The translations under genes and the position numbers were made by a program. Shown piece by piece: positions 9,692 through 62,057 of a stretch of 64,000 nt of DNA; within the stretch, counting starts at the first letter, position 1, and each line of letters begins with the position of its first letter. Source of the DNA: a virus. Location of the stretch: positions 186,001 through 250,000 of IMG/VR virus record IMGVR_UViG_3300042939_000736. One strand, given 5' to 3'. The notes beneath the pieces were generated by a model that searched no databases, had not been told where the DNA came from, and saw only the letters and a list, made by a program, of their open reading frames with translations.

Positions 9692-10234
9692 ATGAAAACT
9701 GAAAAATTAGATTTAACAGAAAAATTAATTGAAGAATTGAAAAAAAGAAGAATGTTCGAAGCTAAAGAATTCGAAGAAGATGATGATGATGAGGATGATG
9801 ACGATGAGAATAATGATGAGGATGATGACGAAGACGAAAATGATGATGAAGATGAAAATAATGATAACAACGAAGACTTTTGTGAAATGGTTTGTAAAAT
9901 TCTTCACTCAAGAAATCAAGCTCACATATATCACCTTCAGACACAATCTTTTGCTGAACACAAAGCTCTAAATGATTACTATGATGGTATATTAGGACTA
10001 TTTGATGCTATTATAGAGTCTTACCAAGGTAAATACGGTATAATCAGAACTTATAAGACATTTAAAATTGAACAGTATAAAAATAATAAAAAAACAATTT
10101 CTTATTTTGAAAGATTACTGGACGATATAGATAATCTTAGAGGATCTGTTGAAGATAGTTATCTACAAAATCAAATTGATACTGTTGAAGAATTAATTAA
10201 CTCAACAATTTATAAACTTAAATTTCTTAAGTGA
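9692..10234 (+). CDS. DUF5856-like phage protein with acidic linker
   Basis: The start at 9692 follows the TATTTAT motif; an earlier in-frame Met lies upstream of the motif. After a charged N-terminus come about 35 residues of almost pure Asp/Glu/Asn, then a helical domain with HSRNQAHIYHLQTQSFAEH, KALNDYYDGI, IESYQGKYG and a final STIYKLKFL. This matches my recollection of the ferritin-like DUF5856 of tailed phages. The acidic tract may bind metal or basic partners. Role unknown. It overlaps the next gene by 4 nt. Confidence 0.7.
   Translation: MKTEKLDLTEKLIEELKKRRMFEAKEFEEDDDDEDDDDENNDEDDDEDENDDEDENNDNNEDFCEMVCKILHSRNQAHIYHLQTQSFAEHKALNDYYDGILGLFDAIIESYQGKYGIIRTYKTFKIEQYKNNKKTISYFERLLDDIDNLRGSVEDSYLQNQIDTVEELINSTIYKLKFLK
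9770..9876 (+). repeat. Low-complexity GAT/GAA/AAT tract
   Basis: Triplet-rich segment (gat, gag, gac, gaa, aat) encoding a run of acidic residues. Prone to slippage; long poly-Ser frames on the opposite strand are artefacts of it. Confidence 0.8.
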
Positions 10235-10593
10235 AACTAGAAATTACAGAAAATGAAAAAAATGATATTTCTTCACATCACGAAGAAATAGACAACATCC
10301 TGTTCAATTTTTTAATAAGAAGAGTAAGAATTGAAGAAAAAAATTTAGGTACAGATTGGTTTGATCAAAAACCGCTTAAAGTTACTGAATATAGATTTGA
10401 AGGATTTCCTGGTTATGGGTTTAATAGTTTTTCTTCTAAAAAAGACATGGAATATAAAATTGTTGAAATGTTGGTTGAAGGAACTGATATGGTTGGTGAC
10501 TGGTTTTTTGGACCAAACAATGTTAATAATCCGGAAAGACAAAAATTTATGAAAACAGTAAGAAATTTTTTAAATTTCATTTTGACAAAATGA
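10231..10593 (+). CDS. Hypothetical protein, 120 aa, leader-like start
   Basis: GTG start overlapping the upstream stop. The N-terminus MKLEITENEKND resembles the recurrent MKIIITExQ leader but lacks a clear cleavage motif. The rest includes EGFPGYGFNSFSSK and DWFFGPNN; no family recognised. Confidence 0.55.
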   Translation: MKLEITENEKNDISSHHEEIDNILFNFLIRRVRIEEKNLGTDWFDQKPLKVTEYRFEGFPGYGFNSFSSKKDMEYKIVEMLVEGTDMVGDWFFGPNNVNNPERQKFMKTVRNFLNFILTK

Positions 10594-10604
10594 AAAAAAA
10601 ATTC

Positions 10605-10612
10605 TAAATTTG
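10605..10612 (+). promoter_or_regulatory. Host-like promoter TTTG-N20-TAAATTTG
   Basis: TTTG at 10581-10584 and TAAATTTG here are separated by 20 nt, matching the Bacteroidota -33/-7 layout. Start codon at 10646. Confidence 0.6.
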
Positions 10613-10645
10613 TTTATTGTTTAACTTAAAATTATAAAAAAAGAA

Positions 10646-10894
10646 ATGGGTACAAAATCAGGGAAGAACGGGAGGTATATTTGTAAAGTTGGTTATTTTG
10701 ACATTTATGCAAAAGATAGTCACAAACCAAAAAAAGATTCAAAATATAAATTTTTAAAGGCAGAAGTTAAATCAACAGTTTACAATGTACTACACGCCAA
10801 AAAATTAATCCAAGGGAACTTTAAAACCAAAGATGATGCTGTTAAAAATGCTATTGAGCTTTTGGGGGATAAAAGATTAAACTATTCATTATAA
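10646..10894 (+). CDS. Hypothetical basic protein, 82 aa
   Basis: Lys-rich, beta-rich start (GRYICKVGYFDIYAKDS), then a helical end. Single-gene unit between a host-like promoter and a strong terminator. Function unknown. Confidence 0.6.
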   Translation: MGTKSGKNGRYICKVGYFDIYAKDSHKPKKDSKYKFLKAEVKSTVYNVLHAKKLIQGNFKTKDDAVKNAIELLGDKRLNYSL

Positions 10895-10897
10895 AAC

Positions 10898-10925
10898 AAA
10901 GTCGGATCAAAAATCCGACTTTTTA
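10898..10925. terminator. Bidirectional intrinsic terminator
   Basis: AAAGTCGGAT / ATCCGACTTT stem with a 5-nt loop and T-run, between convergent genes. Confidence 0.85.
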
Positions 10926-10929
10926 ATTT

Positions 10930-11487
10930 CTAATCGTCCCATTGAGAAGTTACATCTAAATAATTTAAACCAAAATCAAGTTGTATTGTGTGAACGTAAC
11001 CTTCAATCTCACCACGTAACCAATTTACAACATCCAAATAAATATCATCATAGTGATCATCCATAAGTTCTTCATAGGTTAATTGTCCATCACTTGTATC
11101 AAAAGTACCATTTATAATATAAAAACCAAAATTAAGTTCACCATCTTCCATGTAGAATTTTTCAAAACTACGGGTAATCATAACCTCGAAGTGGTCATTT
11201 GAATAAATATTTTGATCTGAGTTTCTTAGGTCTTTATCTGTTACCTTTAAATTTGTAATGTATTGGTCAAAAAGTTCGAAAGCCTTATCCTTACCACCAA
11301 CAAATTCATAATACCATTTATCAATTTGATCTATATATTTAGATAATTTTTTTCTATATAGATCAACGTAACCTATCCTTGGTATTTCACCTGAATTTAC
11401 TTGGCGTTCCCATAGATTGAAAAAATACTTTTTTAATGTATCCATTTTAGAATCTTCTCTTAATATGGTTTTGATAAGATCTTTCAT
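10930..11487 (-). CDS. Leader-bearing protein, 185 aa (paralogue of 18402 gene)
   Basis: Leader of the MKxIIRxILxEE type (MKDLIKTILREDSK). The body aligns with the protein at 18402-19019: YFFNLWERQVNSGEIPRIG versus RFFYNKWDKEKNEGKTPSIG, with a similar 'FxxLNGxF' strand and C-terminus. A minus-strand TATTTAT motif precedes it, so this class of promoter works in both orientations. Function unknown; predicted to be virion-packaged on the leader argument. Confidence 0.7.
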   Translation of the reverse strand: MKDLIKTILREDSKMDTLKKYFFNLWERQVNSGEIPRIGYVDLYRKKLSKYIDQIDKWYYEFVGGKDKAFELFDQYITNLKVTDKDLRNSDQNIYSNDHFEVMITRSFEKFYMEDGELNFGFYIINGTFDTSDGQLTYEELMDDHYDDIYLDVVNWLRGEIEGYVHTIQLDFGLNYLDVTSQWDD

Positions 11488-11493
11488 ATTTAA

Positions 11494-11500
11494 ATAAATA
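11494..11500 (-). promoter_or_regulatory. Candidate late promoter motif TATTTAT (minus)
   Basis: Reads TATTTAT on the minus strand, ending 6 nt upstream of the start at 11487. Confidence 0.45.
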
Positions 11501-11526
11501 CTACAAAAAACTGAAGTAAAAAACTA

Positions 11527-12601: not shown

Positions 12602-13102
12602 ATGAATATTTTAATAACAAAAAGTCAATATGTTAACTTGAAAGAAAATCTTGATCAGGTATTAGATTTATATTCAAAAATGAATAGTGGTAAAGAACTT
12701 AAACCTTCCGAAAAAGACGTTTTGAGGGCTTTCAAAAGGTTTACCGACAGGGGAGGTAATCCAGAAGATTTTATATTTGATTTAGAATACATATATGATA
12801 ATGATGAAAGACAAGGAATGAAGTTTAAATACGATATCAAAGGTAAACTTTTTATTTATGAATTCTCAGAAGAAATTGATAAGGGTGATGAAATAGAATA
12901 CTATGGAGAAGTAAAGTATAACGATGACGAATTCCTTGGTGTAATTGTAACAGATAAAAGAGGTTATTTGATAACCTACGATTTTTATAGTGTTATAAGT
13001 GACCAAGATATAAGATTACAAAACATTTTGAAAAATGAAGGTACTGATTCCGAAATACAACATTTTTTCCAAGAAGAAGTTATAAATAGTTTGAAAAAAT
13101 GA
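12602..13102 (+). CDS. Leader-bearing protein, 166 aa
   Basis: Leader MNILITKSQYVNLKEN is a variant of MKIIITExQ. Next comes a short 'YSKMNSGKELKPSEKDVL' helix-turn-helix-like segment also seen near the N-terminus of the 32227 protein (DKMSRGEELSQEDKNKM), then a beta-rich domain. It overlaps the next gene by ATGA. Function unknown. Confidence 0.65.
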   Translation: MNILITKSQYVNLKENLDQVLDLYSKMNSGKELKPSEKDVLRAFKRFTDRGGNPEDFIFDLEYIYDNDERQGMKFKYDIKGKLFIYEFSEEIDKGDEIEYYGEVKYNDDEFLGVIVTDKRGYLITYDFYSVISDQDIRLQNILKNEGTDSEIQHFFQEEVINSLKK

Positions 13103-13293
13103 AAATTATTATTACAGAAAAACAAGCAGATAAGTTGTTTGGAAATAATGTTGAATGTAAAAAATGTTCACACAGTTGGGAAATAGAAAAAAATGATAAA
13201 AACCCTTTTCTGTGTCATAATTGTGGGTGGGATCAAAAAATTAAAAAATATAAAGATAAAGAGTTGTTAAACTTTTGGAAAAAATATGAGTAG
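13099..13293 (+). CDS. Leader-bearing zinc-ribbon protein, 64 aa
   Basis: Leader MKIIITEKQADKLFGN followed by a rubredoxin-like knuckle pair: CKKCSHSW then LCHNCGWD, about 20 residues apart. It consists of little more than leader plus zinc ribbon and may bind nucleic acid or a protein partner. It overlaps the following gene. Confidence 0.7.
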   Translation: MKIIITEKQADKLFGNNVECKKCSHSWEIEKNDKNPFLCHNCGWDQKIKKYKDKELLNFWKKYE

Positions 13294-15784
13294 TTTAATT
13301 TCGGAAATAAACAGAATGCGAGATTTGATGGGTATTAAAACTCAAATCAATGAAAACTACTTCAAAAAAAATATTTTGCTTTTGGAAGAAACTGGATATG
13401 GTCAAGCCATGGATATTTACAAGGGCATGTTGAAAAAAGTTGGAATAGAACTTTCAGAGGAAGAACAGAAATATCTTAAAGCTTTTGTCGATGAATTTAA
13501 CAGAAAATTCCCGTCAGAAAAAATTGATTTTTCTGGTGGACTAGATAATTTAACAAGAAAAACTTTAAATAATTTTCTGACTAAAGAAACAGAAGAAGTT
13601 GTTGGTGAAGTTTTTGAAAGAGCTATAAAAAATATTGAAGCCGATATTGCTATAAAACAAATTCAAACACCAACAGAAGTTTTAAGAACAAAACTAACAA
13701 ATAATAATATTTTGAGTTCAGGTGGGGAAGCAAAATCCTTGACGGATTACATTTCATTTATTTATCAAAAAGGGGGCGTAAAAAATTCAAACATTCCGCC
13801 CGATACATTAACTTTTTTGAAAATGGATTTAGAAGAAGCGGCAAAAAAATTAGTATCTACAGGAGAAGAAACTGTAAAAAAATATGTTAATGACTTAATA
13901 GGACAGATTGATGAATTAGAAGGAACTTCAGTAAAAACTATAGATCCCGAAATAAAAAAATCAGTCACTGATTTAAAAACATCTTTAAAACCAGCGGTTG
14001 AAACCCAACTTTCGAAAGTAGATATTTCTAATAAATTAAAAAGTTTGGCGGATGCAGACCAATCTATGAGATTAGGTAATGAAATGGATGTTGAAGTTGA
14101 TTTGTCAAATCAAACAGATCTTAAAAACTTAATGGGTAACGATCCTGAAAGTTTTATTAAAAGTTTAGATTCTATGGAAGACCTTCAAAATGTTTGGATC
14201 ATTGTTCAACATTCTGATAACGACATAAACTTTCAAAAACAAATTCTTAGTATACTACAAAAAAATCAACAATTTCTTGAAACTAAATTTACAACAGAAG
14301 CATCTCAGATAAAATCGGGAATTGCAATGTTAGAAGATAGGGTTATGGTTAATTCGAACACAAGTGTGACAGGATATAGGGAAACTGGAATGGATGATTT
14401 TGGGGATTTAACCAAAGGTAAACAAACATATGGTTCACAAGGTGGAATGACACCTGACGGTAGTTTTTGGGTCCCAAGACCAATAGAATTAGATGGAAAA
14501 ATATATTTTTTCGAAACACCTCAAAAACTTTTAGATGACACTGAATTTCTGAATAAACTAAACGCAAAAAGAACTTCTATGGGATTATCCAAAATGGAAG
14601 ATTATTTGAAACTTATGAACGATGAACTTGGTGTGGTTGATGAATTAGTTGACGATTTGGTTCCTGCACAATATCTACCTAAAAATCTATCGGATAAAAC
14701 AGTATTTTCGATTTTTTCAAAAAAGGGAATTTTTTACTCAGAAGGTATCAATCTTACTAGAGAACTTATTGATAAATTTTTATCTGAATCACAAAAACTT
14801 TATGTGGATGCCATTACAAAAAAAGAATTACAGGATTACATAACCGCATTAAATTATCTAAAAAATAAATTTGGTAACGGAAAAATATATGTTACTTCAC
14901 TTTTAGATGGAAAAACAATAGAAAAAAAGACCATAGGTGAGTTTATTACCGATGTTGAAAATAATTTCAAAAGAATTTATGATGAACAGGGAAATTGGTC
15001 TCCTTTGAATAAGTTGGATACAAATTATAACGACATGCCCAAAGAGATGACAACCTTTATCAAAACAGTTTTGAATCCTGAAGAATACGAAAATTTTGTA
15101 AAAAAAATACAAGATTTTGAAAATGCCCCTGCTAATTCAATTGAAAAAGAACAGGCAAAAAAATTATTGGAAGACGAATTTAAAAATATTAAATCAAAAC
15201 TTTTGACAAATGAAAACTATGTAAAAAATTGGACAAAAAGAGTTGACGAATTAACCCAATCAATTAAAAATAACAGCGCTTTAGGTAATTTATCAGAAAC
15301 AAAGGTTAATGAAACTTTAAAAAATAATAATTTCAAAATTTTATTCACCGCTAGTGATGGATCACCAATTGACGTTTTACTCAATATAGATCAAATTGTA
15401 GAAGACACATCAGGAGTTTTTGGTGGTGGTATTAAAACGGTTCAGACAAAAACAGCTAACTCAATCCAAGAAGGAAAATTTGTTGGTGTTGGTAAAGACA
15501 GAAAATTTGTACCTGAAGAAGGAACGGGCATATTTAAAGTTGAAATAACGGCAAATAAACGGATTGCGAAACAAAGTCAAATTGACCTTGCTGGGTTCTA
15601 TGACCCTCAAACAGGTAAAACTTTAATTGTTGGTAAACAACCAAAACTAAGTGGAACTTACAATCCGGACGGTACACCTCAGTATCTTTCACAGTTAGAA
15701 CTACCTGGATCTACAATACCAGTTACAAAATCACCAATTAAACCAATTATAATTGACAAAGATACGCCGAAGATCTTCCAATAA
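13286..15784 (+). CDS. Large leader-bearing protein (832 aa) with nuclease-like C-terminus
   Basis: Leader SLISEINRMRDLMGIKTQ is of the MNLQENI..MMG type and ends in I-N-E at residue 23. Most of the protein is helical and unrecognised. The last 160 residues look like a PD-(D/E)XK nuclease: a Glu-containing helix (LSETKVNETL), SDGSPIDVLLNID, the VQTKTA strand (E/QxK position) and IDLAGFYDPQTGKTLIVG, as in archaeal-resolvase-like PDDEXK families. If so, a DNase would be carried in the head. The nuclease part is an inference from motif order; the rest could be a structural internal protein. Confidence 0.7.
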   Translation: MSSLISEINRMRDLMGIKTQINENYFKKNILLLEETGYGQAMDIYKGMLKKVGIELSEEEQKYLKAFVDEFNRKFPSEKIDFSGGLDNLTRKTLNNFLTKETEEVVGEVFERAIKNIEADIAIKQIQTPTEVLRTKLTNNNILSSGGEAKSLTDYISFIYQKGGVKNSNIPPDTLTFLKMDLEEAAKKLVSTGEETVKKYVNDLIGQIDELEGTSVKTIDPEIKKSVTDLKTSLKPAVETQLSKVDISNKLKSLADADQSMRLGNEMDVEVDLSNQTDLKNLMGNDPESFIKSLDSMEDLQNVWIIVQHSDNDINFQKQILSILQKNQQFLETKFTTEASQIKSGIAMLEDRVMVNSNTSVTGYRETGMDDFGDLTKGKQTYGSQGGMTPDGSFWVPRPIELDGKIYFFETPQKLLDDTEFLNKLNAKRTSMGLSKMEDYLKLMNDELGVVDELVDDLVPAQYLPKNLSDKTVFSIFSKKGIFYSEGINLTRELIDKFLSESQKLYVDAITKKELQDYITALNYLKNKFGNGKIYVTSLLDGKTIEKKTIGEFITDVENNFKRIYDEQGNWSPLNKLDTNYNDMPKEMTTFIKTVLNPEEYENFVKKIQDFENAPANSIEKEQAKKLLEDEFKNIKSKLLTNENYVKNWTKRVDELTQSIKNNSALGNLSETKVNETLKNNNFKILFTASDGSPIDVLLNIDQIVEDTSGVFGGGIKTVQTKTANSIQEGKFVGVGKDRKFVPEEGTGIFKVEITANKRIAKQSQIDLAGFYDPQTGKTLIVGKQPKLSGTYNPDGTPQYLSQLELPGSTIPVTKSPIKPIIIDKDTPKIFQ

Positions 15785-15947: not shown

Positions 15948-16673
15948 ATGAAAATTAAAATTACGGAAGATCAATTCCAAAGACTTTTGGAAAACAAATT
16001 AAATGGTAACCAAATTAATGAAGGCGTTTTCGGTATATTAGGAAAAATTGCTAAGTACGCTTTAGGTGGTGCGGCAATTTCATATATATTAAAAAAACTA
16101 ATAGATAAGTTCAAGGATAAAGAACCTACAAAAGCGGAAGTAGAAAAAGAAATTGAAAGACTTGGAAATGATGTAAAAAAATCTGAAGAATCAGAATCCA
16201 AAATAGATAATAAAAACATAATAATAGGAGATTCACAAGTACCTTACATTGATATGAATACAAAAAAGGCCAGTAAAATATCAACCAAAGGTGGTGAAGA
16301 ATCTTTGTGGTTAGGTGGTGTTGGGTTAAACTGGTTAAAAAACGCAGTTAGAAATTATAAAACGGATAATACAGTCAAAAATGTAATAATCAGTATTGGG
16401 ACTAATGGTGGTTTTAACACTAATGAAGATATTAGTGGATTATTTGATAATTTGAAAAAAACATTTCCTAAGGCAAATTTTTATGTTGTACAAGGATCAT
16501 GGGGATGGGGTGGAAACAAAGACATAGAACAATCTGAAGTTGATAGGTATTACAGAGTCTTCAAAAACCAAGGGGCAACAATTATAGAACCACCTATAGG
16601 TAAAGTTTCGGACCCACACGGTGATTTATCTGTTTATGGTGAAATAGGTAAAAACATCGATTCCAAACTATGA
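15948..16673 (+). CDS. Leader-bearing SGNH-hydrolase-like protein
   Basis: Leader MKIKITEDQFQRLLEN leads to Q-I-N-E at residue 25, after which a hydrophobic, possibly membrane-inserting segment begins (GVFGILGKIAKYALGGAAIS). Then a charged linker and an SGNH/GDSL-type domain: IIIGDSQ (Ser96), ISIGTNGG and SDPHGD near the end. The usual DxxH is here D222-P-H224, one residue short, so activity is uncertain. Such domains act as esterases, often on cell-surface polymers. It overlaps the next start by ATGA. Confidence 0.65.
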   Translation: MKIKITEDQFQRLLENKLNGNQINEGVFGILGKIAKYALGGAAISYILKKLIDKFKDKEPTKAEVEKEIERLGNDVKKSEESESKIDNKNIIIGDSQVPYIDMNTKKASKISTKGGEESLWLGGVGLNWLKNAVRNYKTDNTVKNVIISIGTNGGFNTNEDISGLFDNLKKTFPKANFYVVQGSWGWGGNKDIEQSEVDRYYRVFKNQGATIIEPPIGKVSDPHGDLSVYGEIGKNIDSKL

Positions 16674-17140
16674 AAAAACCTAATGTAAAAATGTTGATAG
16701 AAAATCGGAATATTTACGACTATCAGTTCGGATTTTGTCATTACTTCGCCACAAATATTAAAGATAAGTTACAGGAAATTCTTTCACATAAAAAAGTTAC
16801 TTATTATTTGATTGTTTCCGAAGAACTGGTAATTGACACCAATGAAATTATTGAATATCATCTAATTCACGTTTATTTAAAAGTAGATGAATATTTTTTA
16901 GATTCAAAAGGAATACACGGATATGATGATGTTATTTCCAAAATAGAAAAATATGAAATGGAAGCGATTAAATATCTTCCTGACTTCATGGAACTTACAA
17001 TAAAAGAAGGTGAATCAGATATCATACCCAATTTATTTTTTGATGACAACGAATGTGATCAAGTACAGGTAAAAAAAGACGTTGAAGAATTTATGTCTAA
17101 TCCTGAAATAAAAAAATTCATAAAACAAATGAAATCATAA
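16670..17140 (+). CDS. Putative papain-like cysteine hydrolase, 156 aa
   Basis: The pattern GFCHYFA (Cys23), then LIHVYLKVDEYFLDSKGIHG, gives a Cys...His...Asp order like small papain/transglutaminase-fold enzymes with a GxCHxFA nucleophile motif. The N-terminus MKKPNVKMLIEN is a weak leader variant. Coupled to the SGNH-like gene. The function is an inference. Confidence 0.55.
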   Translation: MKKPNVKMLIENRNIYDYQFGFCHYFATNIKDKLQEILSHKKVTYYLIVSEELVIDTNEIIEYHLIHVYLKVDEYFLDSKGIHGYDDVISKIEKYEMEAIKYLPDFMELTIKEGESDIIPNLFFDDNECDQVQVKKDVEEFMSNPEIKKFIKQMKS

Positions 17141-18027: not shown

Positions 18028-18402
18028 ATGAAAGTTCTGATAATGGAAAATCAACTAATATCTACAGTTCAAGGAATGGTAGATAATACAATTGACGAGT
18101 TCACAAAAGATTGTGAAAATATAGACGCTGAAAATGGGCCACCATATTTATCATTTGATGACTGTGATTTATTGGATAGTCTCGAAGAACTTGAAATTGT
18201 AGAAGTAACAAAAAGTGATCAAAATAAAGGTAAGTACTTACTTTTCGACGCAAAGGTTAATGTTTATTATAGGAATGTTTTTGAATATCAGGACTATAGT
18301 AATTTTTTACATAGTTTAAGATTAAGAATAAAAGAAAAATATAAAATAACTGTGATGTTTACTGTTGCTGATGAAGTAAATAATCAACCAAGAGAATGGT
18401 AA
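18028..18402 (+). CDS. Leader-bearing protein, 124 aa
   Basis: Starts MKVLIMENQLIS, a variant of MKIIITExQ. The body is acidic with a beta-rich C-terminal half. It ends ...W-stop in TAATG, coupling to the next gene. Function unknown. Confidence 0.6.
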   Translation: MKVLIMENQLISTVQGMVDNTIDEFTKDCENIDAENGPPYLSFDDCDLLDSLEELEIVEVTKSDQNKGKYLLFDAKVNVYYRNVFEYQDYSNFLHSLRLRIKEKYKITVMFTVADEVNNQPREW

Positions 18403-19019
18403 TGAAAGGTATTATTAGACAAATATTGAATAACGAAATTAAGAATAATTTATATGAAGGAAAACCTTCAAATTATAAAAATATAGAACAACTTAAAAGA
18501 TTTTTTTATAACAAATGGGATAAAGAAAAAAATGAAGGAAAAACACCATCAATTGGGGATATATCCAAATTAGGGTTGAATAGGGCTAAAGATCAAATAA
18601 TTTCCTTATATGTTGAATATATGGGTTATGATTCTGAAATTAGTAAAATCACCGCTATTAAAAAATATTTGACATCGAATATTTTCACTGAAAAAGACAT
18701 TACAGAAATGGATAATTTTAGTGAAGGTAAAATAACTGTAAAATTTGATAAAGTTGATTTTTCCGAATATGAAAGTGATCGTGACAATGTTATGGATTTA
18801 GATGTTAGTTTTATAGTTCTTAATGGATCCTTCTATAATAGTGAAGAAGACGAAATATATAACTTTTCAACTGGAAATAACCCATTTGATGACTTTGTTA
18901 CATATTTTGAGTTTAAAGAAGAAATTGAACAGATTGTGGAAAGTTTTGTTCACAGAACAATAGAAAATTTTGGATTAGATATAAACCGTAATTTTGATTA
19001 TATAAGTGTTAAGTGGTAA
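18402..19019 (+). CDS. Leader-bearing protein, 205 aa (paralogue of 10930 gene)
   Basis: Start chosen at 18402, where TAATG overlaps the upstream stop; it gives the leader MKGIIRQILNNE. The body aligns with the minus-strand gene at 10930-11487. It ends ...KW-stop, again in TAATG. Function unknown. Confidence 0.65.
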   Translation: MKGIIRQILNNEIKNNLYEGKPSNYKNIEQLKRFFYNKWDKEKNEGKTPSIGDISKLGLNRAKDQIISLYVEYMGYDSEISKITAIKKYLTSNIFTEKDITEMDNFSEGKITVKFDKVDFSEYESDRDNVMDLDVSFIVLNGSFYNSEEDEIYNFSTGNNPFDDFVTYFEFKEEIEQIVESFVHRTIENFGLDINRNFDYISVKW

Positions 19020-23281: not shown

Positions 23282-23417
23282 TCTTATAATCAAATCATAA
23301 AAACTAAATGTTAAGGGAAAGTTAAGTCGTTACCTTTTTGTTAAGTATTGTAAATGAATTGAACTTAACAAAATGGTTTACTATCTATTGTTAGATATAA
23401 ACAATAAAATTAAAAAA

Positions 23418-31086: not shown

Positions 31087-31091
31087 TTGAG

Positions 31092-34667: not shown

Positions 34668-34672
34668 TTAAC

Positions 34673-39349: not shown

Positions 39350-39350
39350 C

Positions 39351-49805: not shown

Positions 49806-49831
49806 TAAAAGGGGACTAAGTCCCCTTTTTT
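49806..49831. terminator. Bidirectional intrinsic terminator
   Basis: AAAAGGGGACT / AGTCCCCTTTT near-perfect palindrome between convergent genes. Confidence 0.88.
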
Positions 49832-51517: not shown

Positions 51518-51519
51518 TT

Positions 51520-52413: not shown

Positions 52414-53151
52414 ATGAAAAGAATTATTATTTCTGAAGAAGAAAGAAATCATATTTTAAAATCCCATGGTTTGAACGAATCATTGCCAGAACTTGATGTT
52501 TTTCCAATTCAGGGTGGTAAGTATAATATTGGATACGACCCAAAATGGGACGACTTCAACAACCCTATGGGTACCGCAAACAGTGACTACTCAAGACAAG
52601 CAACCCATGCTGGCGCTGGTGGACATTTACATGGTCATATAGGGGTAGATATTTTTGGACCCAAAGGTACACCTATTTTAGCGCCTGTTGATGGTAAAGT
52701 TAAATATGGTGGTAACGGTTTAACTGTGATAATAGAAGATCCCGAAACAGGATATTCACATTGGTTAGGTCACTTGGATACACGTACAGTAAATGAAGGT
52801 GATTTTGTATTTGCAGGTCAACAAGTGGGTACTTTAGGTAATACAGGAAACGCACAGGGAACAGCACCTCACCTACATTACAATATTTACAGTACTAACG
52901 CAGGATTTTATTCAGGCGAAGATCCTTTAAACATATTAAAAGGGGCGATCAATAAGACACCCAAAAAACCACAAGAAGTAGAGTATGAAGATTTAGGTAC
53001 GAAATTTAAAAGCGCCTTCAAAAAAATATTTGGATCCGAAGAAAAAGATGAAAAAGGAAACGTCAAAGCTGAAGATGAACATGATCTTTGGGATAAAATG
53101 AAAATTGCTGGAAGTGTTTTCTTTGATAAAATTAAAAATATCTTTGATTAG
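52414..53151 (+). CDS. Leader-bearing M23 peptidoglycan peptidase
   Basis: Leader MKRIIISEEERNHILKSHG, then L-N-E at residue 22. LytM-type M23 domain: HGHIGVDIFGPKGTPILAPV (zinc ligands His75, Asp79), VKYGGNGLTVII, WLGHLD, and GTAPHLHYNIY (His153, His155). These zinc enzymes cut peptide bonds of the cell wall. The C-terminal 60 residues are charged and helical. No signal peptide; the leader suggests virion carriage. First of a three-gene run ending in an NlpC/P60 enzyme. Confidence 0.88.
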   Translation: MKRIIISEEERNHILKSHGLNESLPELDVFPIQGGKYNIGYDPKWDDFNNPMGTANSDYSRQATHAGAGGHLHGHIGVDIFGPKGTPILAPVDGKVKYGGNGLTVIIEDPETGYSHWLGHLDTRTVNEGDFVFAGQQVGTLGNTGNAQGTAPHLHYNIYSTNAGFYSGEDPLNILKGAINKTPKKPQEVEYEDLGTKFKSAFKKIFGSEEKDEKGNVKAEDEHDLWDKMKIAGSVFFDKIKNIFD

Positions 53152-53152: not shown

Positions 53153-53440
53153 ATGGGACATATTAGAATTTCTGAAAGAGAACTTATAAATACAATCAAA
53201 AAAATTATAAATGAAAATAGTGATTTTGTTACAGGTATTTCTGCATCAGAAAGAGCTGAATTAGTTGACGATGTTATAAACAGAATAAATGAATTTGGGG
53301 ACGAGTATATTATTGCGTTGAATAAATTGAATTATGAATTTCAACCAAAAAGAATTAAAAGAATGGAAAGACCTAGATCTATGGACGATGTAGAACTACC
53401 TAAAGGAATAAAAATTAGTAAAAGTATTTTTCCACGGTGA
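53153..53440 (+). CDS. Leader-bearing protein, 95 aa
   Basis: MGHIRISERELINTIKKIIN then E at residue 21; start one base after the M23 stop. The rest is a helix and a basic segment (FQPKRIKRMERPRSMDDVEL). Between two cell-wall peptidases; may assist them. Confidence 0.6.
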   Translation: MGHIRISERELINTIKKIINENSDFVTGISASERAELVDDVINRINEFGDEYIIALNKLNYEFQPKRIKRMERPRSMDDVELPKGIKISKSIFPR

Positions 53441-54120
53441 AAAAAGAACAATTCAACATATTAGAAATTGAAAAAAGAAGGATTCTTGAAATGCATAATT
53501 TCAAAGGGAGTTACATTTCTGAAGAAAAAAAACCTACTTTTTTGGTTTTGGAACAAGAAGAAGAAAATCCTGTTACAACTAACACAACAAGTATACCACC
53601 CGAAGTAAATCTCAACTCAAACAATGAAGATTTACCTACTATGGAGCCACTTAAACCTGAAAAAATAGATGTCACTCTACCATCACCGGAAATTGTGGAA
53701 ATTGGTAAACAGTATTTAGGTAAACCATATGTCTATGGTGCCCAAGGACCAAATAAATTTGATTGTAGTGGTTATGTAAGATATTTACTATCCAAAACGG
53801 GTTTATTGACAGATATAAACGACACATCTAAACTTCCTAGAACTGCTTCAGGAATGTATTCATCACCATCATTAACCAAAGTTAGTATGGAGGAAATAAA
53901 ACCCGGTGACTTAGTTTTTTTTAAATCAGGATCAAAAATTAGTCACGTAGGTTTGATTTCCAAAGTCGATCAGGATGAAAAAAATGAAAAAATATTTCAT
54001 ATGTTACACGCGTCTTCATCATCGGGAACCCAAGATACAGAACAAACTCAATATACAAAAAAAGGTGTAAATAAAACCCCATATTGGGCACCAAAGATCG
54101 CCGGTTTCGGAAGAGTTTAA
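53437..54120 (+). CDS. Leader-bearing NlpC/P60 cysteine peptidase
   Basis: GTG start overlapping the upstream stop. Leader part IEKRRILEMHNFKGSYISEE with I-S-E at residue 29, then a Pro/Asn-rich linker. NlpC/P60 domain: GKPYVYGAQGPNKFDCSGYV (Cys110), GDLVFFKSGSKISHVGLI (His170) and HMLHASSSS (His191). Cuts D-glutamyl-type peptide bonds in peptidoglycan. Catalytic triad intact. Confidence 0.87.
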   Translation: MKKEQFNILEIEKRRILEMHNFKGSYISEEKKPTFLVLEQEEENPVTTNTTSIPPEVNLNSNNEDLPTMEPLKPEKIDVTLPSPEIVEIGKQYLGKPYVYGAQGPNKFDCSGYVRYLLSKTGLLTDINDTSKLPRTASGMYSSPSLTKVSMEEIKPGDLVFFKSGSKISHVGLISKVDQDEKNEKIFHMLHASSSSGTQDTEQTQYTKKGVNKTPYWAPKIAGFGRV

Positions 54121-54123: not shown

Positions 54124-54438
54124 ATGAAAAAATTGTTTATAAATAGAATTTTAAAAGAGTATGTAATGACCGAGTCATTAATTTACGATGATAATTCGTT
54201 TATTGATGAAATTGATCAGATAAAAAGACTTTCTGAACAAGATCCTGAATTTGAAAACAAACTTGATAAAATTTGGAACACTTTAGAAATTAAAGTTAAA
54301 AAAAGTGGTGGTGATATGTCAAACATTAAAACAAGCGTGAATACTTTGTTAAAAATGTTCGTTGAAAAACTAAAAGATAAAAGTAAAAATCCAGCTGTTT
54401 GGATAAGGAGATATAATGTTTGTAAATTATGGAAATGA
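54124..54438 (+). CDS. Leader-like small protein, 104 aa
   Basis: MKKLFINRILKEYVMTESLI resembles the MKxIIRxILxEE leader. The body is helical and acidic, then basic (IRRYNVCKLWK). It overlaps the next gene by 10 nt. Confidence 0.55.
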   Translation: MKKLFINRILKEYVMTESLIYDDNSFIDEIDQIKRLSEQDPEFENKLDKIWNTLEIKVKKSGGDMSNIKTSVNTLLKMFVEKLKDKSKNPAVWIRRYNVCKLWK

Positions 54439-54950: not shown

Positions 54951-54966
54951 TTGGGGATTTTTTTAA
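54936..54966. terminator. Intrinsic terminator overlapping stop codon
   Basis: AATCCCCAA / TTGGGGATT stem with T7, between convergent genes. Confidence 0.85.
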
Positions 54967-55388
54967 TTAACTTCCAAAACTTCAAGATCAAAGATTAATT
55001 TTTTACCCGCTAATGGGTGATTACCATCCAATTTAACATTTTCATCACCAACCTCAATAACTCTAAAATTTATTGGACCCATTGGTGTATTTGCTTGTAA
55101 CATGTGACCAACAACAACACCTTCAGGGACTTTGTCTTTAGGAACTTCTTGAATCATATTTTCGTTGTATTGACCATAAGCCATATCGGACTCAATTTCA
55201 ATTGTTTTCTTGTGACCAACTTCCATGTCGATCAAACCGTCTTCGAACCCTTTTATAAGTTGTCCTTGACCTAAAGTGACCGTCAATGGATCTCTTCCTT
55301 CATTTAAAGAAGAATCGAATACGGTACCGTCTTCTAATTTACCCGTGTAGTTTACAGTCACGGTGCTGTTGTTTGTAATTTTTACCAT
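54963..55388 (-). CDS. FKBP-type peptidyl-prolyl isomerase, SlyD-like
   Basis: Folding catalyst. VTVNYTGKLEDGTVFDSSL, PLTVTLGQGQLIKGFEDGLI, VGHKKTIEIESDMAYGQ, then an inserted flap domain (EVPKDKVPEGVVVGHMLQA) and GNHPLAGKKLIFDLEVLEV, the typical SlyD order. At 141 aa it ends without the metal-binding His tail of E. coli SlyD. Codon choice is close to yceI and uvrC, suggesting acquisition from a host. Chaperone help for virion proteins is a possible use. Confidence 0.92.
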   Translation of the reverse strand: MVKITNNSTVTVNYTGKLEDGTVFDSSLNEGRDPLTVTLGQGQLIKGFEDGLIDMEVGHKKTIEIESDMAYGQYNENMIQEVPKDKVPEGVVVGHMLQANTPMGPINFRVIEVGDENVKLDGNHPLAGKKLIFDLEVLEVN

Positions 55389-55654: not shown

Positions 55655-56290
55655 ATGAAAAAAGTTATCTCAGAAGAATTGAATTATATCAAATATTTGT
55701 TTGATTATAAAAAAGGTGTTGTTATTTCAGAACAATCGGTAGTCACTGATACTACAACTTTAGACCCAAGTAATAAAACTAAATCAACGATAAATCAAAC
55801 AAAATCTGCTAATTTACCTGTGGTTGACGAGCCAGAACCAAGTCCTTCAAAACCAACAATTTCAACAACACAAACAGTTTCAACTACTAATGTTAATACT
55901 GTTGAACTTGAATCACAAAAAAAACAATTAGAAACGCAACTAAGTAGTATCCAATCAAGTTTGGACGTACTTAATAGAAAAAATGAAACTGAAGAAAGAC
56001 AAAGAATAGAATCTTCAATTATTAAAAAAATAGAAGACTTAGACACTTATCTTAGATCAAACTGTGGAAAGAAAATGACAAAACTCTGTAAAGAATACTT
56101 GAAAGAAAAAAATTCATATAACCAACAAATGGCAACCCTTAGAAATCTTACAACAAAAGAAGGTCCAGGTATGGAAAAAAATGAAAAGGATGCCGCGGAC
56201 AAAACACAAAAATGGATTACAGTAGTTAACAATATCATTGGGTTATTTACAAGTGCAATCGCAGCAACAAAATTGACTAAAACACAGTAA
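55655..56290 (+). CDS. Leader-bearing coiled-coil protein, 211 aa
   Basis: Leader MKKVISEELNYIKYLFDYKK, then V-I-S-E-Q at residue 26. A Ser/Thr/Pro linker (EPEPSPSKPTISTTQTVSTT), a coiled coil, a Cys pair (CGKKMTKLC) and a C-terminal hydrophobic helix (ITVVNNIIGLFTSAIAATKL). May span a membrane after ejection. Function unknown. Confidence 0.65.
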   Translation: MKKVISEELNYIKYLFDYKKGVVISEQSVVTDTTTLDPSNKTKSTINQTKSANLPVVDEPEPSPSKPTISTTQTVSTTNVNTVELESQKKQLETQLSSIQSSLDVLNRKNETEERQRIESSIIKKIEDLDTYLRSNCGKKMTKLCKEYLKEKNSYNQQMATLRNLTTKEGPGMEKNEKDAADKTQKWITVVNNIIGLFTSAIAATKLTKTQ

Positions 56291-57571: not shown

Positions 57572-60028
57572 ATGAAAAAAATATTTTTAATTTTTATACT
57601 TTTAGTTAACTTTGTGTATTCACAATATTGTCCTTATATTGGACCGGATTTAACCTTACCTTGTGGTGTCAACTCAACAACTTTGACCGCTGATCTATCA
57701 CAATGTGGTCAAGGAGCACTTCCTCAAGGAACCTCTAATTATGGAGTTACTAACATACCTTATGTTGCTCAAGTAAATAACGGAACATTGGTTCAACTTG
57801 GGGACGATTCACAATCTGGTGTATTTAATATTGGTTTTACTTTTTGTTATTACGGATCAACTTACACACAGTTTCGTATAGGATCTAACGGATGGGTTTC
57901 GTTAGGTGCAGGTGCTCAACCAACAACGTTCACATCTGCGGCAATTCCAAATGCAGGATTTAACATACCTAAAAATTGTATTATGGGCCCATGGCAAGAT
58001 TGGAACCCTGGAATTGGAGGTCAAATTAGATATCAAGTACAAGGAACAGCTCCGTGTCGTAAATTAGTAGTTAGTTGGATAGGTGTTCCTATGTTTTCTT
58101 GTACAAACCTTCAGGGCACTTTTCATATTATACTTTATGAATCCACAAATGTTATAGAAAATCATATTGCAAATAAACCAAACTGTCTTCAATGGGCTGG
58201 AGGAACTGCAGTACAGGGTATACATAACCTTTTAGGAAACGCTGCCGTAACAGTTGTAGGACGAAACTCAACTCAATGGACTACTGTTAACAATGCTTAT
58301 CGTTGGACACCAAACGGTGGAGTGATCCAACCAACTTGGACATGGTATCAGGTAGGAAATCCAAACCCAATTGGTACAGGATTGAGTATCACTGTCAATC
58401 CCCCCATCGGAGGAGCCTATTATACCTGTCAACCAGTATTCCCTTCTTGTAACGCAGGATGGGCAACATGTAATATTGGTGGTGGTAATTTAGGTCCCGA
58501 CACCATTTTAGTAACACCAACACCAAATTTACCACCACCCACAGTTACTCCAACAGATCCTTTATGTAATAATGGTTGTAATGGATCAATAGTTGTGACT
58601 CCTGTTGGTGGATTAGCCCCTTATGTTATTAATTGGGCTAATGGATCAAACACTCTAACTTTAAATAACTTGTGTTCAGGGACATATAATTTTTCTTTAA
58701 CCGATGCAAATGGGTGTGTGTACAATGGAACTTCCACTTTATTGAACCCACCACCATTACAATTACCAATAGTAACGTCAACTAACCCAACTTGTTTTGG
58801 TTATTGTGACGGATCATCAATTGTCAATCCTATAGATGGACTTGCACCATACACATACCTTTGGAATGATGGTCAAACCACTCAAACGGCAACTAATTTA
58901 TGTTCGGGAAACTATTCTGTAACTGTTACAGACGCAAATAACTGTCCTGCAACTCAAACTACAACGTTAGTTGATCCTCCACTTGTAACAATCAACCCGA
59001 TTACAGGATCAGACACAGTTTGTTTTAACTCTACAGGTAATTTATACAATGTTTCAAGTGTTTTTCCTAACCTAAACTACGTATGGACTAATACGATAGG
59101 AAATATCTCGTCAGGACAAGGTACAAATCAAATAAACTTGGACGTAACTGGCGTGAATAATGGTCTTTACACTAATACTTTATCGGTTATTGGTGTAAAT
59201 CAGGTAGGTTGTCAGTCACAACCTCAAACTTTTTCTATAGTTGTGTTAAATATTTTTCCTGTGATCACACCAGTTGGACCTTTTTGCGAATACGACAACT
59301 GTATCAACCTAATTGCGACTCCTCCTAACGGTAGTTTTAGTGGATCTAACGTAATTGGTGATCAATATTGTCCAAGTAATGGTTATATTGGTCTTGATGA
59401 GGTTACGTATACTTATATTCAGTCAGGATGTTTGTTTGATACCTCAATATTTGTTCAAACTTACTCAAGACCATCAATAATTCCTGTCACAAATGGTATT
59501 GTAGGTGAAAATACTGAGTATCATCAGATATGTGAAGGAGATACGGTACAAGATTCCTTCACGTTGAACACACCGAGTGGTGGTTTTAACGAATGGTATG
59601 TGTTTGGTGACACAACACAGACACAAAACCTGTCAATTACATGGAATATTGATGGAATCTACACATTTCAAGGGGTAAGATGGGACAATGGATGTGTTTC
59701 TAACCCCCAAACGTTCACTGTAACGTTAGAATTGTGTCCAAATGACATATTTTACATACCAAACGCCTTTACACCCGATGGAGACGAAAAAAACAACGTA
59801 TTTAAACCCATAATTACATCAGGAGTTGACATTTTTAACTACAGTTTTGTTATATTCAACCGTTGGGGACAGATAATATGGGAATCAATGAACACAAATA
59901 CAGGTTGGGACGGTACATATGACAACAAACCATGTCAAGATGGAGTTTATACGTGGAAATTGAAGTATAAAAATCCTAAAAATGATGAAATTCGTGAGTT
60001 TTATGGAAATTTCTCATTAATTAAGTAA
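57572..60028 (+). CDS. Surface protein with SprB repeats and CHU_C domain, 818 aa
   Basis: Start at 57572 gives signal peptide MKKIFLIFILLVNFVYSQ. An N-terminal globular domain (YGSTYTQFRIGSNGWVSLG) is followed by two SprB-type repeats (TVTPTDPLCNNGCNGSIVVT; TSTNPTCFGYCDGSSIVNPI), Ig-like parts, and the gliding-motility C-terminal domain: IPNAFTPDGDEKNNVFKPI, IFNRWGQIIWES, GWDGTYDNKPCQDGVYTWKL. That domain is a type B T9SS sorting signal. Expected to be exported onto the surface of a Bacteroidota cell. Unlike the other T9SS protein it has a TATTTAT motif, so it may be made late; an adhesin or surface decoration is plausible. Confidence 0.85.
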   Translation: MKKIFLIFILLVNFVYSQYCPYIGPDLTLPCGVNSTTLTADLSQCGQGALPQGTSNYGVTNIPYVAQVNNGTLVQLGDDSQSGVFNIGFTFCYYGSTYTQFRIGSNGWVSLGAGAQPTTFTSAAIPNAGFNIPKNCIMGPWQDWNPGIGGQIRYQVQGTAPCRKLVVSWIGVPMFSCTNLQGTFHIILYESTNVIENHIANKPNCLQWAGGTAVQGIHNLLGNAAVTVVGRNSTQWTTVNNAYRWTPNGGVIQPTWTWYQVGNPNPIGTGLSITVNPPIGGAYYTCQPVFPSCNAGWATCNIGGGNLGPDTILVTPTPNLPPPTVTPTDPLCNNGCNGSIVVTPVGGLAPYVINWANGSNTLTLNNLCSGTYNFSLTDANGCVYNGTSTLLNPPPLQLPIVTSTNPTCFGYCDGSSIVNPIDGLAPYTYLWNDGQTTQTATNLCSGNYSVTVTDANNCPATQTTTLVDPPLVTINPITGSDTVCFNSTGNLYNVSSVFPNLNYVWTNTIGNISSGQGTNQINLDVTGVNNGLYTNTLSVIGVNQVGCQSQPQTFSIVVLNIFPVITPVGPFCEYDNCINLIATPPNGSFSGSNVIGDQYCPSNGYIGLDEVTYTYIQSGCLFDTSIFVQTYSRPSIIPVTNGIVGENTEYHQICEGDTVQDSFTLNTPSGGFNEWYVFGDTTQTQNLSITWNIDGIYTFQGVRWDNGCVSNPQTFTVTLELCPNDIFYIPNAFTPDGDEKNNVFKPIITSGVDIFNYSFVIFNRWGQIIWESMNTNTGWDGTYDNKPCQDGVYTWKLKYKNPKNDEIREFYGNFSLIK

Positions 60029-60919: not shown

Positions 60920-60936
60920 AATTAATTGTTTTTTAT

Positions 60937-60943
60937 ATAAATA
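60937..60943 (-). promoter_or_regulatory. Candidate late promoter motif TATTTAT (minus)
   Basis: 17 nt upstream of the start at 60919. Confidence 0.45.
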
Positions 60944-61005
60944 TTTAATAAAAAGTAAAAAAACTATTTACTTTTTTTATTTGTATACATTGTGTTTGTA
61001 GACCA

Positions 61006-61039
61006 AAAAAAAAAAGGGACAGTAGCGAATTGTCCCTTT
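61006..61039 (-). terminator. Intrinsic terminator (minus)
   Basis: AAAGGGACA / TGTCCCTTT stem; long minus-strand T-run after it. Ends the gene at 61078. Confidence 0.85.
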
Positions 61040-61077
61040 CATTGTTACCAATAACGGTAACGATCCTAAGCAAAAAT

Positions 61078-61608
61078 TTATTGGCCCTTAACCAAATTAA
61101 TACATTGTTTTAGATATTCTTTAGCTCTTGGTGACGGAGTATATTCGTCTTCCCTAGTTTGAAGATTTAAAACTCTTTCGATATCTTTGACAAGTTCCGT
61201 ACCATGTTCATTTTCTTTATATAATTCTATTATTTTGTCCATAGCTCGGTGACAATCACCAGTAGTTTCATCGTAATAGTTTTTGTTTCGAAACCTATTC
61301 AAATTGTTCATCATTTCATATGCCAAATGTGAACCACCATCTTTGATATCTTTAAAAAGTCTCAGATTATTTAATATACCTAAAGTATCTACCATAGAGT
61401 TAACCCCTGATTGTCTTTTTGTAATACCAGGTGAATATTTTCCATATTCTTCAGCTCTACCTACTATTTCATCAAGAGGGATCATATTTTCTCGAACACA
61501 TCTTGGTTTCACTTCACCTTTTTTTCTTTTTGTTTCTGAATCCTCCTCATTTAAAACTTTTCTTGCAATTCTTCTAATGTCTGATTCTGAAATTTTAAAC
61601 ACTTTCAT
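61078..61608 (-). CDS. Leader-bearing protein, 176 aa
   Basis: Leader MKVFKISESDIRRIARKVLN then E at residue 21, a relative of MKRIVRLTESDL. The body is helical, basic then acidic (GDCHRAMDKIIELYKENEHG). Function unknown. Confidence 0.65.
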   Translation of the reverse strand: MKVFKISESDIRRIARKVLNEEDSETKRKKGEVKPRCVRENMIPLDEIVGRAEEYGKYSPGITKRQSGVNSMVDTLGILNNLRLFKDIKDGGSHLAYEMMNNLNRFRNKNYYDETTGDCHRAMDKIIELYKENEHGTELVKDIERVLNLQTREDEYTPSPRAKEYLKQCINLVKGQ

Positions 61609-61624
61609 ATTTTTTATTTTTTAG

Positions 61625-61631
61625 ATAAATA
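61625..61631 (-). promoter_or_regulatory. Candidate late promoter motif TATTTAT (minus)
   Basis: 16 nt upstream of the start at 61608; divergent from the + copy at 61656. Confidence 0.45.
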
Positions 61632-61655
61632 TATTAAAATAAGTGAATTTTCACA

Positions 61656-61662
61656 TATTTAT
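61656..61662 (+). promoter_or_regulatory. Candidate late promoter motif TATTTAT
   Basis: 20 nt before the ATG at 61683. Confidence 0.45.
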
Positions 61663-61682
61663 ACTAATAAATATCAACTACC

Positions 61683-62057
61683 ATGATCAACGAATCAACT
61701 ATAAAAAAATTAATACATAAAATTATAAATGAAGAGTTTAATAATTTTATATATCGTGACATTTATGGATCAGTAGAAAATGCTGATTTTATATTAGAAG
61801 CAGAATATCAAGGACGAAAAGTCCAACTTGGTAAAATAATGCAAGGTGATATTAAAAAATTTAAAGTTTATGTTAAAAATGACAAAGGAAAGGTTGTTAA
61901 AGTAAACTTTGGTTTTGGTGGAAAATCTGCAAAAGGTAAAAGGATGGTTATAAAGAAAAATAACCCCGAAAGAAGAAGATCTTTCAGGGCAAGACATAAT
62001 TGTGACAATCCTGGCCCAAGATGGAAACCGAGATATTGGGCTTGTAGAACTTGGTAA
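61683..62057 (+). CDS. Leader-bearing phage protein with FRARHNC...YWACRTW tail, 124 aa
   Basis: Leader MINESTIKKLIHKIINEE. Then a small beta domain (KKFKVYVKNDKGKVVKVNFG) and the tail RRRSFRARHNCDNPGPRWKP then RYWACRTW. I recall this KVYVKN...FGxxxxxxRRxxFRARHxC...YWxCxxW pattern from T4-like marine phage virion proteins. The two Cys and Trp residues may form a metal knuckle. It abuts the minus guaC-like gene with no gap. Confidence 0.78.
   Translation: MINESTIKKLIHKIINEEFNNFIYRDIYGSVENADFILEAEYQGRKVQLGKIMQGDIKKFKVYVKNDKGKVVKVNFGFGGKSAKGKRMVIKKNNPERRRSFRARHNCDNPGPRWKPRYWACRTW

Follow-up and report, generated by a model that had tools for sequence, protein, structure and literature searches.

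The window analysed here is a 64,000-nucleotide stretch (C1:186001-250000) of C1, the 290,710-base IMG/VR virus record IMGVR_UViG_3300042939_000736, which has a G+C content of 30%. Between positions 9,692 and 62,057 it carries about forty proteins of dissimilar body that open with one of a few short recurring N-terminal leaders, many of which end in a hydrophobic residue, any residue and glutamate (phi-x-E). We consider it very probable that these leaders are capsid-targeting propeptides removed by a gp21-like prohead protease, with packaging, cleavage and injection of the cargo as the predicted steps. The genes are given below in window coordinates, with a slash at the putative joint. Loci elsewhere bear L-numbers (L008-L010 lie in C1; L101, L103, L104, L117, L121 and similar are related contigs). 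Start codons were assigned by rule (the first start, or a nearby ATG), without annotation, and the coverage of C1 so far is 164 of 291 kilobases (kb), namely the window and five other stretches.

10930-11487, minus strand: leader gene, MKDLIKTILRE/D
12602-13102, plus strand: weaker leader gene, MNILITKSQYVNLKE/N; orthologue L117_1274, MKIIITESQYKMLSE/N
13099-13293, plus strand: 64-residue leader gene, MKIIITE/K
13286-15784, plus strand: 832-residue protein with no assigned function, leader end TQINE/N; paralogue C1:257622-259715 with diverged leader end KLNE/G
15948-16673, plus strand: leader gene, MKIKITEDQFQRLLENKLNGNQINE/G
16670-17140, plus strand: leader gene, MKKPNVKMLIE/N; orthologue L117_11525, leader MNLQESIRRILREE
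18028-18402, plus strand: leader gene, MKVLIME/N
18396-19019, plus strand: leader gene, MVMKGIIRQILNNE
19019-19519, plus strand: leader gene, MKKIIRNILHE/E
19567-20562, plus strand: leader gene, MKNIIRDILKE/ETFLISE/I
20588-21802, plus strand: leader gene, leader end MTIISE/D; orthologue L101_7456 with a different leader, end ILFE/D
21854-22279, plus strand: leader gene, MKRIVRLTESDLARIVRRVIRE/E
22841-23281, plus strand: leader gene, MNKVKNIVKIIVE/S
27361-28302, plus strand: C45/AAT-like N-terminal nucleophile (Ntn) hydrolase, leader MKNLIRSILNEELHREVIHE/C; Cys21 directly after I-H-E
28553-29440, plus strand: DUF2237 protein (E=2.4e-38), leader MGLNESIYRIIRE/E
29442-29852, plus strand: leader gene, MNLQENIQRIKEMMKINHSFLNE/S
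29852-30334, plus strand: leader gene, MNLQENIQRIKEMMGIIVE/N
30331-31086, plus strand: gene with MNLQENI only; phi-x-E joint not clear
31083-31433, plus strand: leader gene, MIEVNKKEFIKRLLRE/N
31448-32230, plus strand: leader gene, MNLQENILRIKQMMGLVTE/V
32227-32976, plus strand: leader gene, MNLQENIQRIKQMMGIINE/N
32978-33385, plus strand: leader gene, MNLQENISRIKQMMGLLTE/G; orthologue L121_10554, MKNLQEQIYRIQSMMGIIKE/G
33387-34667, plus strand: hybrid-leader gene, MNLQESIRRILRE/D
34787-35110, plus strand: leader gene, MSLKKIIRKVLIQE/S
37949-38662, plus strand: leader gene, MELNRFKQLLESSLGDVRPLISE/Q
39023-39349, plus strand: leader gene, MKIIITE/R
40537-41157, plus strand: VanY/M15-type carboxypeptidase (Pfam VanY, E=7.9e-7), leader MKIIVTESQLRRYLVKE/S
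41760-42266, plus strand: leader gene, METNRFKQLLESTLGNVKPLISE/Q
42591-43229, plus strand: leader gene, MKNFIITESEKQRILEMHQSATSRQYLKE/NEDEW; L104 orthologue, MKKIIRLTESDLTRIIKRVIKE/NEEEW
44696-45247, plus strand: leader gene, MKFIINE/N
45244-46101, plus strand: leader gene, MKIIISEKQYRALKSKFLNE/N
46178-47209, plus strand: leader gene, MKRLLINEQEKLRILNLYGTSKNIIKE/E
47885-49801, plus strand: leader gene, leader end EKYLFE/S; L103 orthologue, DNYIQE/S
50452-50772, plus strand: leader gene, MKRIVRLTESDLTRIVRRVISE/Q
52414-53151, plus strand: M23 peptidase (Pfam M23, E=1.8e-21), leader MKRIIISEEERNHILKSHGLNE/SLPELD; L101 orthologue, leader MDKKRFNQLLESKVGNVKPLISE/SLPPLS
53153-53440, plus strand: leader gene, MGHIRISERELINTIKKIINE/N
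53437-54120, plus strand: NlpC/P60 hydrolase (Pfam NLPC_P60, E=1.3e-17), GTG start, leader VKKEQFNILEIEKRRILEMHNFKGSYISE/E
54124-54438, plus strand: leader gene, MKKLFINRILKEYVMTE/S
55655-56290, plus strand: leader gene, MKKVISEELNYIKYLFDYKKGVVISE/Q
61078-61608, minus strand: leader gene, MKVFKISESDIRRIARKVLNE/E
61683-62057, plus strand: leader gene, MINESTIKKLIHKIINE/E

The initial annotation of this DNA held that recurring leaders precede bodies that do not resemble one another, and counting bears this out. Five strict leader patterns match 30 of the 103 window genes of at least 60 amino acids, as compared with 3.6 ± 1.9 matches on shuffled N-termini (300 rounds, maximum 12) and 3.3 ± 1.6 on internal segments; some of the matches are surely false. 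The same patterns match 8/108 genes in the five other stretches of C1 (3.1 ± 1.8 expected), so the leader genes are concentrated in the window within the 164 kb covered. With about a dozen looser cases accepted by eye, "about forty" proteins is a fair figure. Size floors excluded proteins below 60 amino acids from the N-terminal counts, below 70 from the families and below 110 from the candidate list. When N-terminal 25-mers were compared in pairs, 53/18,721 reached a BLOSUM score of at least 40, a score attained by 2/12,720 pairs for residues 31-55 and 2/8,515 for residues 61-85. Single-link clustering of 194 N-termini from the window and L008-L010 placed 47 in one cluster with 100 links, one of which is accompanied by similar bodies; this cluster contains noise, some unrelated N-termini having been pulled in by single linkage.

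The position of the joint was examined in the same genes. A script re-reading of the 13 genes for which an L/I-x-E triplet had been reported found the reported triplet in every one, with the Glu at residue 19-29: INE in 13286, 15948 and 32227, LTE in 32978, LKE in 42591, IVE in 29852, ISE in 37949, 41760, 50452, 53437 and 55655, and LNE in 29442 and 52414. For gene 55655, the earliest ISE ends at residue 7 and the reported VVISE/Q at residue 26. Among the 38 leader genes of the window and the five C1 stretches, 33 hold phi-x-E within residues 13-38, against 18.6 ± 3.1 after shuffling (0/200 shuffles reached 33), and the control pattern [LIV]-x-[DQKN] occurs in 31 against 31.5 shuffled. Related loci (L011-L090) give 61/85 leader genes with phi-x-E at residues 13-38 versus 33.1 shuffled. 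The MKIIITE and MKxIIRxILxEE leader types also have a phi-x-E within the leader, at residue 5-12, so the precise cut site is ambiguous for some proteins.

Leader shuffling, originally proposed within one genome, is also seen between orthologues, where the same body follows different leaders and the joint lies at phi-x-E. The M23 peptidase reads LNE/SLPELD in the window and ISE/SLPPLS in L101, there after a wholly different, METNRFKQLLES-type leader, and the 42591 protein reads LKE/NEDEW versus IKE/NEEEW in L104. Swapped leaders also occur among 36 distinct members of the gene downstream of the capsid gene (YISE/ATGDSS, RVLKE/GTGDSS and IILE/ATTELG). Of the 222 families that have two or more distinct members, 21 show a conserved phi-x-E at the variable-to-conserved boundary, with K and I at 12 each and L and N at 10 each, which is an excess of E and not a clean separation. 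Contigs IMGVR_UViG_3300042482_001138 and 3300042540_001399 were excluded from the pooled families; at ~274 and 291 kb and with 100% matches, they are evidently the same phage in other samples.

The protease and capsid genes had been placed outside the window, and both were located 170 kb away, with the other missing head genes, near one end of C1. A search of the genome for the prohead protease that the initial annotation presupposes returned a Peptidase_S77 (gp21 family) gene at C1:10203-10919 (PF03420, E=1.4e-23, 80.7 bits against a cut-off of 27). An acidic 585-residue scaffold (C1:11268-13025) and a gp23-type capsid protein (C1:13093-14982; PF07068, E=4.9e-64) come next, and this protease-scaffold-capsid order agrees with the T4 order 17-18-19-20-67-68-21-22-23. 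Terminase and portal candidates beside these genes are named by position alone, and a reverse-strand 61-residue gene among them was taken by eye as ribosomal protein S21. This gene set and the reverse-strand S21 fit the bS21-encoding Bacteroidota jumbo phages as characterised in the accessible part of PMC9723584. Compared through the capsid protein, the closest named isolates are Microcystis phage Mel-JY01 (43.1%) and Flavobacterium phage immuto (41.1%), with alignments that span about half of the protein in each case; immuto has the leaders MKKQILSEQFKRMQFLAGIITE/S and MENFDLKKFLVENRLTYNSKLINE/G.

The capsid and scaffold proteins were also searched for cleavage sites of the same consensus. 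Of the 81 capsid sequences aligned (proteins below 450 amino acids, cut by contig ends, were excluded), 80 have LINEA at the place of the maturation site, and the remaining one, immuto, has IVSEA; T4 gp23 has FLTE/A at the corresponding place. LINEA matches the L/I-x-E maturation site of the gp23 type, with the cut itself predicted. VKESL-x-E is present in 41/53 proteins picked by pattern as scaffolds. The S77 protease in L008 has a conserved YIME/S near residue 34, where the enzyme may cut itself, a possibility also discussed for T4 gp21.

The gene at 27361 encodes a remote relative of the C45/AAT Ntn hydrolases and not an equivalog. The window protein matches NF040521 with E=1.5e-10 (41 bits, curated cut-off 85) and reaches 22.5 bits against PF03417 (cut-off 23.2), profile matches that are significant yet below the curated cut-offs; the two profiles match 15/15 and 11/15 aligned members, respectively. 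Searches of the hydrolase against PDB sequences with phmmer and a profile gave nothing significant, and the fold comparison alone matched. The AlphaFold model (predicted local distance difference test, pLDDT, 70.1; predicted template modelling score, pTM, 0.76; residues 1-21 with pLDDT below 50) was compared with Foldseek (E=2.8e-7 to 2x1e, TM ~0.5) and resembles isopenicillin N acyltransferase, penicillin V acylase and bile salt hydrolases (TM about 0.4-0.55). In 47/50 rows (Z 14-18) the superposition starts at model residue 21, a Cys. This residue falls on the first mature-chain residue of NAAA, AAT, acid ceramidase, bile salt hydrolases and others, aligning for instance with residues 1, 2, 103, 126 and 143, which we take to be the nucleophiles of these known enzymes. 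The model thus has an Ntn fold with a Cys at the mature N-terminus, and Cys21, which is invariant among homologues, is the predicted catalytic nucleophile.

Homologues of the hydrolase hold the site more firmly than the leader. Once duplicates are merged, the 99 hits leave 60 distinct proteins, of which 47 are standalone and 13 lie within larger proteins (L193, where the hydrolase runs off the contig end, was excluded), and in 60/60 the Cys directly follows phi-x-E, with I (35), L (16), V (7), M (1) or F (1) at P3. On the assigned starts, the standalone leaders range from 4 (MINE/C) to 35 residues, and a 40% identity rule sorts them into 19 types; it is the site that is conserved here and not the leader. 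In the cultured Chryseobacterium phage MA9V-1 the site reads EFLNE/C, and this phage matches both S77 (29.2 bits, just above the cut-off) and gp23. Among 16 chosen hydrolase-carrying records, S77 is matched in 6 and gp23 in the same 6, and capsid proteins in other hydrolase-bearing records read LISEA, LVTEA, LINEA and LLNES. A scan of cellular genome contigs with the hydrolase alignment and two peptide patterns gave 29 pattern matches, none of them a relative, which is weak evidence that cells lack the family. With phi-x-E directly before Cys21, removal of the leader would make the enzyme.

Known C45-type members self-process or lose only the start Met, and NCBIfam calls this hydrolase family autoproteolytic. 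The hydrolase, and perhaps other cargo, might by analogy remove its own leader, in which case its phi-x-E would not be a prohead protease site and the leaders would serve otherwise, for example in binding the tail, a membrane or a host factor; the several cell-wall hydrolases among the cargo, acting at entry or lysis, would suit such a purpose. We regard this alternative as unlikely, since self-cleavage should have no need of the L/I-x-E found in this phage's own capsid protein and leaves unexplained the recurrence of that triplet in front of dissimilar bodies, the M23 peptidase for instance.

Comparison of the leaders as DNA bears on how they spread. Five genes within 4 kb open with full MNLQENI leaders whose first 45 nucleotides are 80-93% identical, whereas identity is 20-43% in the 30 nucleotides upstream of the ATG and 24-39% in the 100 past the leader. 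The shared DNA of these genes thus opens at the ATG and closes where the leader does, which makes the leader itself the piece that moves there. Gene 30331 has only the first 21 nucleotides in common with these leaders, and gene 33387 fuses MNLQES to the IRRILRE type. The AT-rich 30 nucleotides upstream are 60% identical in 37949/41760 and 67% in 21854/50452, so a shared upstream piece is possible for those two pairs. In addition, the box TATTTAT lies within 45 nucleotides upstream of 33/103 window genes (3.8 expected) and is commoner before leader genes (19/40) than before the others (14/63; one-sided Fisher p=0.007, on a leader list made by eye). It also precedes 6/20 head-stretch genes, protease and scaffold included, 8/17 genes in L093 and 3/22 in L094. 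This distribution is compatible with late expression, a requirement for packaging.

The box and the two upstream pairs would likewise suit leaders that are 5' expression cassettes (promoter, ribosome binding site and start region) spread for strong late expression, with a peptide that has no targeting role. We hold this to be very improbable: the DNA common to the five MNLQENI leaders begins at the ATG, which rejects a promoter cassette as the main cause, and conservation of phi-x-E at the joint and before the Ntn nucleophile would go unexplained. Chance similarity in an AT-rich, Lys/Ile/Glu-rich proteome, which the low G+C content and the stray members of the single-link cluster might suggest, is rejected as having a negligible probability by the shuffles and internal segments (3-4 matches versus 30) and by MNLQENI leaders near-identical in DNA before unrelated bodies.

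The best reading of these sequences is a capsid-targeting-sequence system of the T4 kind, enlarged and with multiple leaders, that would also activate a zymogen. It builds on what sequence and structure comparison reveals: tags that are swapped, a protease, a capsid site that matches, and a site placed directly ahead of the predicted nucleophile. About forty different proteins would be made late in infection, each with one of several short N-terminal tags; by binding the scaffold core, the tag would bring its protein into the prohead. During head maturation the gp21-like (S77) protease would cut after L/I-x-E and the tag would be lost; the mature proteins would then travel with the DNA, enter the next host cell and act there. 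The tags would be separate cassettes, exchanged among genes through recombination at the start codon and the cleavage site. For at least one cargo, the C45-type hydrolase, a cut directly before the catalytic Cys would let head maturation turn a zymogen into an enzyme.

A broader proposal, which we favour with some reserve, is that the prohead protease of this Bacteroidota jumbo phage clade acts in general to activate an injected arsenal. Dozens of enzymes, including fusions with internal sites, would be loaded by interchangeable address peptides, and the cut would both free the cargo and create the catalytic N-terminus. The Ntn hydrolase would then be inactive in the producing cell and live only in the finished head and the next host.

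In fusion proteins of 439-1,593 residues the hydrolase comes after LDE, IHE, VSE, VHE or VDE. In some of these, two other domains follow phi-x-E in both N-terminal and internal positions, namely the GRFQPF domain (FITE/QVKAKK...GRFQPF and VIEE/KSKIKK...GRFQPF, respectively) and a further one (LIKE/ASTGANFPTDDGPPTF and LLKE/VANSGMFPTDDGPPTF), which suggests that fusion cargo may be processed by the same protease. By eye, the fusion in L203, L204 and L205 (1,593 residues) comprises a P-loop-kinase-like part, the Ntn hydrolase, a GRFQPF nucleotidyltransferase-like domain and further domains, with phi-x-E sites at the domain borders. Polyvalent injected proteins are a known theme, and self-processing has been proposed for them in the text available from PMC5512222.

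Most cargo has no Pfam match, and the recognisable cargo consists largely of peptidoglycan hydrolases. Among 30 of the 41 window leader proteins, four have matches over cut-off (DUF2237, VanY, M23 and NlpC/P60). Simple, rather loose patterns applied to related loci gave 287 candidate proteins in 106 body families, a set that certainly includes some false leaders. When 88 representatives, chosen by eye out of the 106 families, were scanned, 24 families were matched, including phage lysozymes, GH19, LysM, M23, NlpC/P60, peptidoglycan-binding, NUDIX, PAP2 and thioredoxin. A scan with the NlpC/P60 protein found only the two near-identical contigs. The share of cell-wall enzymes fits a passage through peptidoglycan at entry, but could also mean lysis.

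Several observations weigh against propeptides cut by the prohead protease. The peptidoglycan hydrolases could be lysis or tail enzymes; C45 enzymes usually self-process, and the Glu before the Cys could serve autoproteolysis. The upstream identity of the two gene pairs described above extends beyond the leader, some leader genes (30331 and 10231) have no clear joint, and by eye the leaders are unlike MKTYQEF of T4. The protease is unmatched in 10/16 hydrolase records, the longest of which is 144 kb, and all of these may be fragments. Non-leader genes are also rich in phi-x-E (75/173 versus 52.4 ± 5.3). In related loci a later phi-x-E in type-B leaders (MKxIIRxILxE) is not clear (8/19 versus 5.6), and the control pattern is elevated both in these (14 versus 8.3) and over all related leaders (74 versus 63.1). 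A few of the 21 families with E at the boundary are trivial (different start calls, or the protease itself). An earlier boundary test favoured K (13 families) over E (8); it was badly built, counting M as hydrophobic and allowing positions beside the start, and has been superseded. We found no virion proteomics for the clade, and in the accessible text of the MA9V-1 paper sodium dodecyl sulfate polyacrylamide gel electrophoresis is present and mass spectrometry is unmentioned.

As in T4 internal proteins (IPs) I-III and Alt, a short N-terminal propeptide ending in L/I-x-E precedes unrelated bodies, in company with an S77 protease and the order gp20-gp21-gp22-gp23. The T4 leaders read MKTFKEFTSTTTPVSTITE/A in ipI (...STITE/A), MKTYQEFIAE/A in ipII/ipIII and MAKINELLRE/S in gp24; the cut places in ipI and gp24 follow the motif. 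Compared by eye with the leaders described here, the T4 IP leaders are alike in form, and the common letters are M-K and E only. In T4 similar leaders stand on three IPs, with Alt in addition, whereas here at least five leader types precede about forty proteins; the T4 cargo consists of anti-restriction proteins and an ADP-ribosyltransferase, and that of the window of peptidoglycan hydrolases, the Ntn hydrolase and unrecognised proteins. According to the accessible portion of PMC9026906, T4 gp21 cuts after L/I-x-E, and its section 2.6 describes the 10-19-residue IP propeptides as capsid targeting sequences. T-even capsid targeting sequences, with ip genes that share a signal before diverse bodies, also figure in the available parts of PMC3012670 and PMC12373910. 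The ip genes of T-even phages, at least 10 according to Repoila 1994 as cited in PMC12373910, are likewise recognised across phages by a shared N-terminal signal. T4 carries three and related phages others, with one kind of signal, in contrast to dozens per genome and several exchangeable signals here.

Further parallels exist. Phages phiKZ and SPN3US share a divergent gp21-type protease, many cleaved head proteins and a cut after x-x-E, but differ in specificity (S/A/G-x-E or A-x-E) and in several SPN3US propeptides of more than 100 residues; an identical N-terminus was noted for the SPN3US paralogues gp53 and gp54. P1 DarB also has an N-terminal signal, 10 to 30 residues long, that sends a reporter into the capsid. 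The C45/AAT-type Ntn hydrolases (2x1c-2x1e, NAAA and bile salt hydrolases) share the fold and the place of the Cys nucleophile, but unlike in the known enzymes, the residues before the Cys here fit the phage protease consensus. Among the literature matches listed, most subscription journals being outside their coverage, there is no description of a single genome in which dozens of proteins carry several exchangeable types of leader, and none of zymogen activation by a prohead protease. A reliable tag and cut site would turn unreadable phage "dark matter" into a predicted list of virion-packaged proteins. If L/I-x-E always abuts the nucleophile, capsid maturation would activate a zymogen, and swappable natural tags could reveal what a capsid address peptide needs.

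Other features of the region were seen in passing. About ten small window proteins, with or without a leader, carry an additional short motif, [FLI][LIF]RR-x, around residues 5-40 (for example PFLLRRVD, PYILRRLD, RWFLRRTN, TFLLRRFD and PQLLRRYV), at 10231-10593, 31083-31433, 33387-35730, 37484-37789, 39023-39680, 41405-41704 and 50858-51804. Signal-peptide-like N-termini (MKKIFLIFILLVNFVYSQ) occur in interspersed genes at 23373-24983, 57572-60028, 47206-47772 and 49830-50381, among them one large secreted-looking protein; this export class is different from the leaders. Past the leader region, 22 transfer RNA (tRNA) genes (18 in L009 and 4 in L010) extend from L009:15051 to L010:1243, that is C1:265051-271243, and many short open reading frames in this array look like tRNA-derived artefacts. 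Window genes at 5683-6801, 26111-27343, 54963-55388 and 62058-63426 include, by eye, a likely thymidylate synthase, UmuC-type polymerase, FKBP-type isomerase, IMPDH/GMP reductase and acyl-CoA thioesterase.

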